A DNA stretch of 53,357 bases, from positions 1 through 53,357 of the forward strand of contig JAMOVA010000033.1 of the NCBI GenBank assembly GCA_027061785.1. Reading direction: 5' to 3'. Source of the stretch: Thermoproteota archaeon (GTDB taxonomy: Archaea > Korarchaeota > Korarchaeia > Korarchaeales > Korarchaeaceae). A program made the translations under genes and the position numbers. Shown here piece by piece: positions 458-4,554 of this stretch (within the stretch, counting starts at the first letter, position 1; every line of letters starts with the position of its first letter). The notes under the pieces are model-generated. The model saw only the letters and a list, made by a program, of their open reading frames with translations, was not told the DNA's origin and made no database searches.

Positions 458-850
458 ATGGTGAAGGCCTTTGAGTTCCATGTGATCGGCGAGCTCCTCG
501 ATGTGGAACCTGAGATGCTCGATGACGTGGAATTCGTCCAGAGCGCGCTAGTTGAGGCGGTTCTGAGATCCGGTCTCACGCTGTTCGACGTGTTAAGCCA
601 GAGGAGGCCGGAGGGAGGCGTCCTGAGCATAGCGATCATAGGGGAATCGCATGCAGCTGTGCACACGTGGCCCGATCGCGGGCTCGTCACTGTGGCGATA
701 TCGTCCTGCAAGGATGCTGAGAGCACCTGGCAGGTATTCATCGAGCTGAAGAGGATCTTCAGGGCTAAGAGACACAAGGCCATAGAGATGAGGAGCGGCA
801 TCCCGCTCATGGAGAGGATAGAGGGACTCCCGGTGGAGGCCCTCGCCTAG
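458..850 (+). CDS. speD: S-adenosylmethionine decarboxylase proenzyme (SpeD family)
   Basis: 130-residue pyruvoyl decarboxylase of the small bacterial/archaeal SpeD type. It normally makes decarboxylated SAM for polyamine synthesis; in some Crenarchaeota a close paralogue is an arginine decarboxylase, so substrate is not certain. The self-cleavage site is intact: Glu63-Ser64 in GESHAAVHTWP, where Ser64 would become the pyruvoyl group, with catalytic His69 and Cys84 (ISSC) at the family spacing. Length is normal. The ATG follows a strong GGAGGTG site (444-450) and a TATA-like element about 50 bp upstream. Compare the defective paralogue at 26182-26550. Confidence 0.93.
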   Translation: MVKAFEFHVIGELLDVEPEMLDDVEFVQSALVEAVLRSGLTLFDVLSQRRPEGGVLSIAIIGESHAAVHTWPDRGLVTVAISSCKDAESTWQVFIELKRIFRAKRHKAIEMRSGIPLMERIEGLPVEALA

Positions 851-1795: not shown

Positions 1796-2365
1796 ATGGG
1801 AAAGATCGGTGGGAAAATAGTTCTGATAGTGGGGCTTCCCGGAAGCGGGAAGGATGCAGCAGCCAAGGCCATCGAGGAAGAGTTGGGATTCAGGGTTTTG
1901 AGGATGAGCGATGAGCTGCTGGACGAGCTCAGGAGGAGAGGGCTCCCCGTAACTAGGGAGAACATGAGGAAGGTGGGGATGGAGCTTAGAGGTAAGATGG
2001 GACCTTCGGCTATCGCTAAGTTGGTGATAAAGAGGATGGAGGAGTTAGGCGGGGAGAAGGGATTCGTAGTGAATGGTATAAGGAACTTAGAGGAGATAGA
2101 GGAGTTCGAACGCAGGTTCGGCGACGAGGTGGTGACGATAGCCATACTCGCGTCCAAGAACATGAGATTCCTGAGGCAGCTGAAGAGGAAGAGGGTGGGG
2201 TTCGACAGGGAAAGCTACGAGGAGTTTCTGGCCGAGGATAGGGAGGAGATAAGGACCTTCCATCTGGGGGATGCCATCGCGGCAGCAGACTACTTCATCC
2301 TGAATGAGGGGAGCCTAGAGGACTTGAGGTGGAAGGTCGTCAGGCTCCTGCTCACGATCAGCTGA
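1796..2365 (+). CDS. UPF0200-type nucleotide kinase-like P-loop protein
   Basis: 189 residues with a Walker A loop near the N-terminus (GLPGSGKD, about residues 13-20) and the archaeal UPF0200 pattern MRKVGMELRGKMGP, then a lid-like Arg/Lys-rich region (FLRQLKRKRVG) and a C-terminal FILNEGSLEDL strand. The fold is that of adenylate kinase or dephospho-CoA kinase, and archaeal members are often labelled dephospho-CoA kinase-like, but the substrate is unknown. Walker A ends in Asp where Ser/Thr is usual (GKD), which would alter magnesium coordination. It converges on the next gene with an 8-nt overlap of the coding ends. Confidence 0.8.
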   Translation: MGKIGGKIVLIVGLPGSGKDAAAKAIEEELGFRVLRMSDELLDELRRRGLPVTRENMRKVGMELRGKMGPSAIAKLVIKRMEELGGEKGFVVNGIRNLEEIEEFERRFGDEVVTIAILASKNMRFLRQLKRKRVGFDRESYEEFLAEDREEIRTFHLGDAIAAADYFILNEGSLEDLRWKVVRLLLTIS

Positions 2366-3425
2366 CCGATCTCCATCTCAGGCCAAGCTCATCGGCCAGC
2401 CGGTAGGCTCTCATCATCTCCTCGACGGTCACTCTCCTGTTTATCTCCTCAAACTTGCTGGCCCTGTACTCGGGCCTGTATTGATCCATTATGTTCACCA
2501 GGATGTCGGGGATATTGTCGGAGATCCACCTCAGGATGGGTCCCGTGCAGCAATCCAAGTGCCCGGGAAGGACCAAGTGCCTCAGCACCATCTCCCCGGG
2601 CGGGTATTCGTACGCCATTTTCAAGTTCCTAGTTACGGTCTCCCTGTAGCGAGGGATCCCGCTGTACTTCCTAGCACACTCATCGTTCCAGTACTTGAAG
2701 TCCGGCAGCCAGAGATCCACCAAGCCGAGCAGGAGCTTCATTGCCTCTTCGCTCATGTACATGTTGGAATTCCACACGACGGGGAAGTCCTCCCTGACGA
2801 GGTTTAGGGAGGAGATTATCAGGGGGAGGTTGGGTGTCGGTTCTCCTCCGACCAGATTTATGTTCCTGGCGCCCTGTCTCCTCAGCTCGTCCATAATGGA
2901 CGCAAGCCCCCGTTCATCCACCCGCCTGCCTGATTCAGGGAATTGAGATATATCCCAGTTCTGGCAGAAGACGCACCTGAAGTTGCATCCGGCGAAGAAT
3001 ATCGTTCCAGAGGGAGTTATTGGGGCTTCCTCTCCCATGTGAATGAAGGCGCTCGCCACCCGTGAGTCTCGAACCCTGCAGACGCCTATTTCCCCCTTAA
3101 GCCTGTTCACACCGCACTTCCACTCGCACAGCCTGCACTCCCGGAGCAGATCTTTGGCCAGGAGTGCTTTGAGTTCAAGCAGGGAGATCCTCCCATCCTT
3201 CTTCTCCTTAGGGCATTCTCCCTCTACCACACATTTCGAGAGTATCTGGAGTCCCTCGTCGTGAGCGGTCCAAGGATCGCCATCCACATCTAAGAAGATC
3301 CTCTGAGCCAGTCTGAAGAGGGGAGGTTCCTCCCTCCTCACCACTCTTATGTACCTCGGTATCGTGTCCCTTATCTCCTCGTTCTCGAAGGCCGAGAAAG
3401 CGTCAGGCCTCAGGAACCATGTCAT
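2358..3425 (-). CDS. Radical SAM protein, PflX-like (COG1313 type)
   Basis: 355 residues. A cysteine cluster at C97, C100, C104, C116 (CRLCEWKC...GVC) precedes the radical SAM motif C147-x3-C151-x2-C154 (GCNFRCVFCQN) and the GGEPTPNLP SAM-binding segment. This domain order matches PflX/COG1313 proteins, relatives of pyruvate formate-lyase activating enzymes whose target is undefined. No partner glycyl-radical enzyme is nearby. The ATG is preceded by GGTGAT (3434-3429), complementary to the 16S 3' end. That site can pair with an upstream CACC, and a folded RNA element (3452-3590) lies just 5', so regulation through the leader is plausible. Confidence 0.85.
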   Translation of the reverse strand: MTWFLRPDAFSAFENEEIRDTIPRYIRVVRREEPPLFRLAQRIFLDVDGDPWTAHDEGLQILSKCVVEGECPKEKKDGRISLLELKALLAKDLLRECRLCEWKCGVNRLKGEIGVCRVRDSRVASAFIHMGEEAPITPSGTIFFAGCNFRCVFCQNWDISQFPESGRRVDERGLASIMDELRRQGARNINLVGGEPTPNLPLIISSLNLVREDFPVVWNSNMYMSEEAMKLLLGLVDLWLPDFKYWNDECARKYSGIPRYRETVTRNLKMAYEYPPGEMVLRHLVLPGHLDCCTGPILRWISDNIPDILVNIMDQYRPEYRASKFEEINRRVTVEEMMRAYRLADELGLRWRSVS

Positions 3426-3428
3426 GCT

Positions 3429-3444
3429 ATCACCGAAGGAGGTG
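3429..3444 (-). promoter_or_regulatory. Ribosome binding site with possible occluding stem
   Basis: On the minus strand CACC (3444-3441) can pair with GGTG (3434-3431) across a 6-nt loop. GGTG is the core of the GGTGAT ribosome binding site, ending 3 nt before the ATG at 3425. Together with the folded element upstream, this is the arrangement expected of translational control. The pairing is short (4 bp), so this is suggestive only. Confidence 0.35.
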
Positions 3445-3451
3445 GAGGTGC

Positions 3452-3590
3452 GGGGAGCCGCCCGGCACGGTGTCCGGAGGGAGGCGTCCTGAGGACGCCC
3501 GAGATCGGGGCCAATTTAGGGCCCCTTCCACTTCGGTGGTAGGCCGTAGCCCGCGCATCGGGCTAAGCCCGCCAAGGGCCGGGCGACCCC
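3452..3590 (-). ncRNA. Candidate structured RNA or 5' leader element
   Basis: A long-range closing helix pairs 3459-3466 with 3578-3585 (8 bp, all Watson-Crick) and 3452-3455 with 3587-3590 (GGGG/CCCC). Inside are four perfect hairpins: 3483-3499 (7 bp), 3507-3525 (6 bp), 3528-3539 (4 bp, CCAC/GTGG) and 3547-3565 (7 bp). A TATA-like TTATATAC at 3618-3611 on the minus strand lies about 25 nt upstream of 3590, which favours minus-strand transcription starting at GGGG. On the plus strand the third hairpin would have a C(UUCG)G tetraloop, so the strand is not settled. It matches no 5S, SRP, RNase P or tRNA pattern that I can recognise. Confidence 0.5.
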
Positions 3591-3610
3591 ATTATATAGG
3601 GCCGGAAGGG

Positions 3611-3618
3611 GTATATAA
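3611..3618 (-). promoter_or_regulatory. TATA-like promoter for the 3590-3452 RNA / radical SAM gene
   Basis: TTATATAC on the minus strand, with a purine-rich GGAAGGG just upstream that could act as a BRE. The distance to the first G of the folded element (3590) is about 25 nt, the usual archaeal TATA-to-start spacing. A second, closer TATA-like CTATATAAT lies at 3599-3591. Confidence 0.45.
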
Positions 3619-3711
3619 CCCTTCCACCCCCTATTAATACCTTTTAACGGGAAAAAGAGGTCGAGAAGTGTAGGGATAATGTCTTATCTAATCTAGGAGA
3701 TCGAGGAAGGG

Positions 3712-4554
3712 ATGGACATCGACAGAACCCGGTTCGGGCCGGCTGGTTATCCATTGGATGCCCCTAAGGAAGAAGCATTCACGTATCTGAGGAGCATAGG
3801 GCTGGACGGGATGGAATATCAAGCCGTCAGGTCAGTTCCGAAGAACAAGGAGCTGCTCAGATGGATAAGGGAGCAGGCAGAGGAGAACGATGTAGTGCTC
3901 TCGCTTCACGCACCCTACGCCATAAATTTAGCCTCTGAGGATCCCAAGAAGAGGGAAGCAAGCATTGGTAGGATCTTATCCGCGGCCGTGGCTGCTCACA
4001 GAATGGGCGCGAGGCACGTCACATTTCACCCAGGATACTACGGTAAGTTCGGGAGGGAAGAGGCCCTGAAAATGGCAATAAATGCTCTGGAGCGTCTCCA
4101 CAGCGTGATAGAGGGAAGAGGACTCCAAGTGGAGCTCGGCCCGGAGACCACGGGGAAGCCCTCGCAACTAGGTTCCCTAGACGACGTGCTCATCATGGCC
4201 GAGAGTGTTGACGGTGTCGTGCCGACCGTGGACTTCGCCCACATACACGTGAGGGATGGAGGTGTAATCAGGGGTAGGAAAGACTACGAGAGGATCTTGG
4301 ATGAGATAGAGGGCAGGTTAGGCACGTTAGACGGTCTCGTCGTGCATTTCACCGAGGTGGAGCCCACCAAGTCGGGTTACGGGGAGAGAATGCACCACGA
4401 GCTGGGCTCTGGCTACGGCCCCGAGTTCGAGCCCTTAGCTCAGCTCATGGTGGAGAGGGACGTCAGGTGGCTGGTGATCTCTGAGTCCCCCTTGTTAGAG
4501 AGGGACGCCTTGAAGATGAAGCAGGTCTACGAACGCCTGAGGCGGGAACGGTGA
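3712..4554 (+). CDS. Endonuclease IV-like AP endonuclease (Nfo family TIM barrel)
   Basis: 280 residues with the metal-site segments of the AP endonuclease 2 barrel in order: SLHAPYAINLAS, VTFHPGYYG, ELGPETTGKPSQLGS, PTVDFAHIHVR, VVHFTEVE, MHHELGSGYGP and VISESP. These supply the His/Glu/Asp ligands of the trinuclear zinc site used to cleave DNA 5' to abasic sites. The E-x2-T-G-K-x3-L-G-S segment is specific to the endonuclease IV group rather than to sugar isomerases. Length is normal. It is followed at once by tRNA-Asp, whose promoter lies just after the stop. Confidence 0.85.
   Translation: MDIDRTRFGPAGYPLDAPKEEAFTYLRSIGLDGMEYQAVRSVPKNKELLRWIREQAEENDVVLSLHAPYAINLASEDPKKREASIGRILSAAVAAHRMGARHVTFHPGYYGKFGREEALKMAINALERLHSVIEGRGLQVELGPETTGKPSQLGSLDDVLIMAESVDGVVPTVDFAHIHVRDGGVIRGRKDYERILDEIEGRLGTLDGLVVHFTEVEPTKSGYGERMHHELGSGYGPEFEPLAQLMVERDVRWLVISESPLLERDALKMKQVYERLRRER

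Follow-up and report, generated by a model that had tools for sequence, protein, structure and literature searches.

A structured RNA is predicted on the minus strand of the window (the whole stretch of 53,357 nucleotides that was analysed), with its 5′ end near position 3590 and the 3′ end of its closing helix at 3452. Comparative sequence analysis leads us to favour, with moderate confidence, a self-standing structured non-coding RNA (ncRNA) which is co-transcribed with an enzyme gene and which would constitute a new family, found in one family of Korarchaeota. Apart from the universal RNAs and the guide RNAs, archaea are known to have few large structured RNAs, and in the open-access literature we found none described for Korarchaeota. 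A conserved RNA which outlives its downstream gene is a concrete and testable candidate in this deep-branching lineage. Two genomes, designated G002 and G003, serve as natural experiments that bear on whether the function lies in cis or in trans.

Genomic context

The window is contig C33 in the 1.76 Mb genome of a heat-loving archaeon, in which the covariance model of the element finds a single match (3451–3590, minus strand, E = 1.2e-22). The next gene on the same strand encodes a radical SAM protein (2358–3425; PF04055) and starts 26 nt downstream of the RNA, which leaves no room for a separate promoter. Since this gap contains no TATA box, the radical SAM transcript should include the RNA. 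The protein is of the glycyl-radical-activase type; the label ‘PflX-like’ given in an earlier note on this DNA is thus loosely right, although the protein scores under every NCBIfam cut-off. On the other side, a divergent gene for a TIM-barrel protein of the AP_endonuc_2 type (3712–4554, plus strand; PF01261) is regarded as a neighbour only.

An orthologue of the radical SAM gene lies behind the RNA in 21 genomes, and a pseudogene takes its place in one further genome. The order TIM-barrel gene, RNA, radical SAM gene, kinase gene and cas6 is retained across most of the family, so that the linkage between RNA and gene could also reflect inertia. The Cas6 gene itself (TIGR01877; 868–1683, minus strand) is conserved at 94–98% between near species, above most of its neighbours, and its position in the cluster is conserved across genera.

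Promoter and predicted start

A TATA box, TTATATA, occupies positions 3618–3612 of the minus strand with its centre 25 nt before base 3590, as had been noticed in the first reading of the sequence. In all 21 genomes checked, which represent five genera, the TATA centre falls 22.5–27.5 nt upstream of the first base of the closing helix; transcription therefore likely starts at the first paired bases. An A+T-rich start-proximal element, CTATATAAT (3591–3600, minus strand), directly precedes the first G of the RNA, and most relatives have an AT-rich stretch at this position. A promoter of its own and a start at the structured 5′ end are features expected of an independent ncRNA gene, and the promoter geometry suggests that the element possesses both.

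In close relatives the TATA box sits in the middle of an inverted repeat (GGAAGGG..CCCTTCC, window 3603–3625), which might act as a bidirectional promoter or bind a repressor of the divergent gene pair.

Stable RNAs of thermophiles usually stand out by a GC content above that of their flanks. The RNA is richer in GC than its flanks in all 21 genomes checked, and no other 140 nt of the entire window are as GC-rich as positions 3451–3590 (0.736 versus 0.552 overall).

Architecture of the RNA

The predicted fold is delimited by a closing helix, P1, which spans 139 nt. It comprises 13 base pairs between 3590–3578 and 3466–3454 of the minus strand, including one U-G and one G-U pair. The earlier note had described the same helix as an 8-bp and a 4-bp piece; these form a single continuous run. 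Across the family, the length of the RNA ranges from about 127 to 153 nt and that of the closing helix from 12 to 15 bp.

Three perfect hairpins are conserved inside P1. P3 (UAGCCC/GGGCUA, 3547–3565, minus strand) is paired in 94% of the alignment cells, and shows little covariation because its sequence is nearly invariant. P5 (GGGGCC/GGCCCC, 3507–3525, minus strand) carries a 7-nt loop, most often with AUU at its end; it is paired in 100% of the cells and has double changes both within the genus and in other genera. P6 (GGCGUCC/GGACGCC, 3483–3499, minus strand) is paired in 97% of the cells with few changes. Four perfect internal hairpins had been proposed, and the fourth, P2 (CCC uuggc GGG, about 3578–3568), proved weaker than the other three. 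A further stem, CCAC/GUGG near 3537, differs among species. Helix P4 (GUGGA.../UCC...) is less certain; no secure alignment of it was obtained.

The folding energy amounts to roughly -83 to -88 kcal/mol at 74% GC. Compared with shuffled sequences, the minus strand has z = -3.55 (0 of 200 shuffles) and the plus strand z = -2.50.

A perfect 20-nt complement to the P6 region lies at 608–627 (plus strand), in the mRNA of an S-adenosylmethionine decarboxylase gene (PF02675; 458–850). This complement is kept in locus L003 and over 15 nt in L005; as it is broken in L002, L004 and L006, we treat a possible antisense target as chance or a weak lead.

Conservation and covariation

A DNA search identifies the element in 14 relatives within the genus (g1). 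The covariance model finds a single copy in 15 of the 16 genomes of the genus; the remaining genome is 70%-complete. In two genomes the model adds a weak match on the opposite strand at the same place. Weak matches also occur in other genera at the orthologous radical SAM gene, to the full model in G017, G022 and G023 and to part of it in G020. Inspection by eye of the region before the radical SAM gene shows that each of the four other genera has the same closing helix and P5.

Compensatory changes in homologues, the check that the earlier note had called for, are found at both evolutionary distances. Within the genus, in an alignment fitted to the structure of the model, 96% of the cells pair and 15 cells show double changes versus 2.9 +/- 1.3 in shuffles, and pairing is lost when the partners are slid against each other. 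An unfitted MAFFT alignment of the genus gives 11 such cells versus 3.0 in shuffles. P1 has double changes at 5 of 11 pairs in the genus. Among 19 genomes of four genera (g1, g3, g4 and g5), with the registers of the other genera placed by hand, P1 accumulates 23 double-change cells and P5 accumulates 10, values reached in none of 2000 shuffles. Furthermore, cells with G-U outnumber those with A-C by 15 to 3, which identifies the minus strand as the RNA. A secondary structure kept by compensatory changes is another hallmark of an independent ncRNA gene, and the alignments argue that the element has one.

These results bear on a trivial explanation, in which the helices would be chance or DNA-level palindromes devoid of RNA function. 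Other inverted repeats do exist in the region, among them the palindrome that surrounds the TATA box. However, compensatory changes far above those of the shuffles, the G-U asymmetry and the survival of the element in G003 (see below) contradict this idea, which we consider most improbable.

Model R1 matches none of the phylum's other genomes and none of 297 relatives, and beyond the genus its matches are weak (24–28 bits in three genomes of other genera); the RNA was thus not found outside one archaeal family with a model that is insensitive at that distance. Upstream of radical SAM genes in other classes and phyla no such RNA was seen.

Leader or self-standing RNA

In the 21 genomes with an orthologue, the RNA sits where a 5′ untranslated element would, in the one stretch that can plausibly serve as leader of the radical SAM gene. 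This arrangement invites a cis-regulatory explanation, riboswitch-like or protein-bound, in which the fold senses a ligand or a protein and controls translation of the radical SAM gene, for instance through a stem over its Shine-Dalgarno sequence. The short distance to the start codon in the window, the presence of the RNA before each of the 21 orthologues that the family was found to contain, the joint relocation in G002 and the occurrence of such a stem in most of the genus speak for such a leader, which is a real possibility without being our preferred reading. It counts against the leader that, in each genome, the element was found in front of a single gene.

The spacer (3429–3450, minus strand) holds the proposed stem together with a Shine-Dalgarno-like GGUGAU of the next gene: CACC at 3450–3447 pairs with GGUG at 3434–3431. 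The earlier note had suggested that this stem could hide the ribosome binding site. The stem does exist, and it is a property of one genus. It was observed in 13 genus members; in G011 it reads CGCC/GGUG, and it is present in the other intact members checked except G014. It is absent from the g3 and g5 relatives examined. The spacing between RNA and start codon varies widely among genera. A conserved expression platform was thus not found in the family, which weakens the case for a cis-acting leader; the stem may matter locally and is no family feature.

An RNA thermometer, also raised in the first reading, would use a hairpin of this kind to cover the Shine-Dalgarno sequence. Given the very stable, GC-rich body and a 4-bp stem which is not conserved outside the genus, we see hardly any likelihood in it.

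Relocation in G002 and gene loss in G003

In G002, the RNA and the radical SAM gene are found together in a new neighbourhood while the TIM-barrel gene lies on another contig; RNA and radical SAM gene therefore look like a unit. This joint move counts against a self-standing RNA, and so does the fact that, wherever the radical SAM gene is intact, the RNA immediately precedes it. At the new site (L008), a small ORF (2059–2343) upstream of the relocated pair appears PIN-toxin-like by eye, and the site is possibly a mobile or toxin-antitoxin region.

G003, a single draft genome, offers the reverse situation. The two genes that flank the RNA have become pseudogenes, with stops and about 20 indels, and no second radical SAM copy was found. 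Compared with its sister G014, the RNA is 88% identical with zero indels and the TATA-to-start segment 92% identical, versus 58% for the spacer between RNA and gene. None of the 36 tested pairs is broken. All seven substitutions in stems preserve pairing (chance P = 0.004, or 0.024 when conditioned on stem hits), and two of them form one compensatory change from C-G to U-A. The lineage has acquired 11 substitutions in the RNA where neutral decay predicts 20–27 (P 0.0005–0.019). A purely cis-acting leader accounts poorly for such retention beside a dead gene, and we read it, on comparative grounds, as selection on the RNA which is not wholly dependent on the radical SAM gene.

The RNA has nevertheless accelerated in G003 following the loss of the gene, as a cis-acting leader would lead one to expect: it carries 11 unique changes versus 2 in the sister (P = 0.02), whereas intact genes evolve at equal pace. 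The constraint on the RNA may therefore have weakened. In G003 (L095/L115) the TIM-barrel gene and the radical SAM gene decayed jointly, and several Thermofilales-type loci (L012, L014, L016, L020, L034 and L054) have genes of these two types close together in a different arrangement, which suggests a shared pathway.

Because the RNA is intact in G003 beside wrecked neighbour genes, we favour the self-standing ncRNA over a purely cis-acting riboswitch. Of the two roles proposed in the earlier note, a stand-alone ncRNA agrees with the promoter geometry, the conserved helices and the fate of the element in G003; a ligand-sensing leader, as a possible additional role, agrees with its location and with G002. 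A dual role, in which a stable RNA that acts in trans is also set free from a cis-regulating leader, would reconcile the co-movement in G002 with the survival in G003; release and regulation alike would have to be assumed, and we judge this combination improbable.

Proposed mode of action

For the self-standing ncRNA, the following sequence of events can be envisaged. RNA polymerase would start at the closing helix, and the transcript would adopt a compact, multi-branched fold that this helix closes off. Some transcripts would end or be trimmed behind the closing helix, giving a stable RNA that would act together with a protein or RNA partner, while read-through transcripts would serve as radical SAM mRNA. 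No terminator or processing site was identified in the sequence behind the RNA. Members of the genus with the CACC/GGUG stem may in addition show a secondary influence of the RNA on radical SAM translation. More tentatively, the element may be a lineage-specific stable RNA, present in one copy per genome in five genera of one Korarchaeota family, which comes from a radical SAM leader and fulfils a task for which no RNA is known elsewhere in archaea.

Comparison with known RNAs

The earlier impression that the element fits no common archaeal RNA holds against Rfam 15. No family reaches its gathering threshold at the locus, and only two tRNAs are detected in the window; with permissive thresholds, the best weak matches stay far under threshold and none is consistent across 11 homologous loci. 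No tRNA or tmRNA is present at the locus. A plus-strand ORF (3419–3637) was dismissed as coding sequence: it has no family match, and length differences between species are not multiples of three.

RNase P RNA, SRP RNA and 5S rRNA resemble the element in being GC-rich with paired ends. A disguised housekeeping RNA of this kind was rejected, as none of the three models matches at the locus and the genome encodes all three RNAs at other positions. Archaeal H/ACA and C/D guide RNAs are likewise small hairpin RNAs. However, no Rfam guide-RNA match exceeds the threshold, and neither C/D boxes nor an ACA box were seen conserved in the alignment by eye.

Archaeal riboswitches such as fluoride/crcB and TPP (PMC2864571) are, like the element, structured RNAs in front of a metabolic gene, within its 5′ leader. 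In contrast to these, the Korarchaeota RNA matches neither class, is devoid of a conserved expression platform and outlasts its gene in G003.

The Hgc RNAs, for example HgcC, offer another parallel: they are GC-rich orphan RNAs which belong to thermophilic archaea and were first spotted from sequence. The element has no match to the Rfam model of HgcC, an RNA of hyperthermophilic archaea, even at E<=10. The genomic settings differ as well: T. kodakarensis contains seven HgcC sequences, several of them inside transposase genes (PMC4247193), whereas the Korarchaeota RNA is single-copy and precedes a radical SAM gene.
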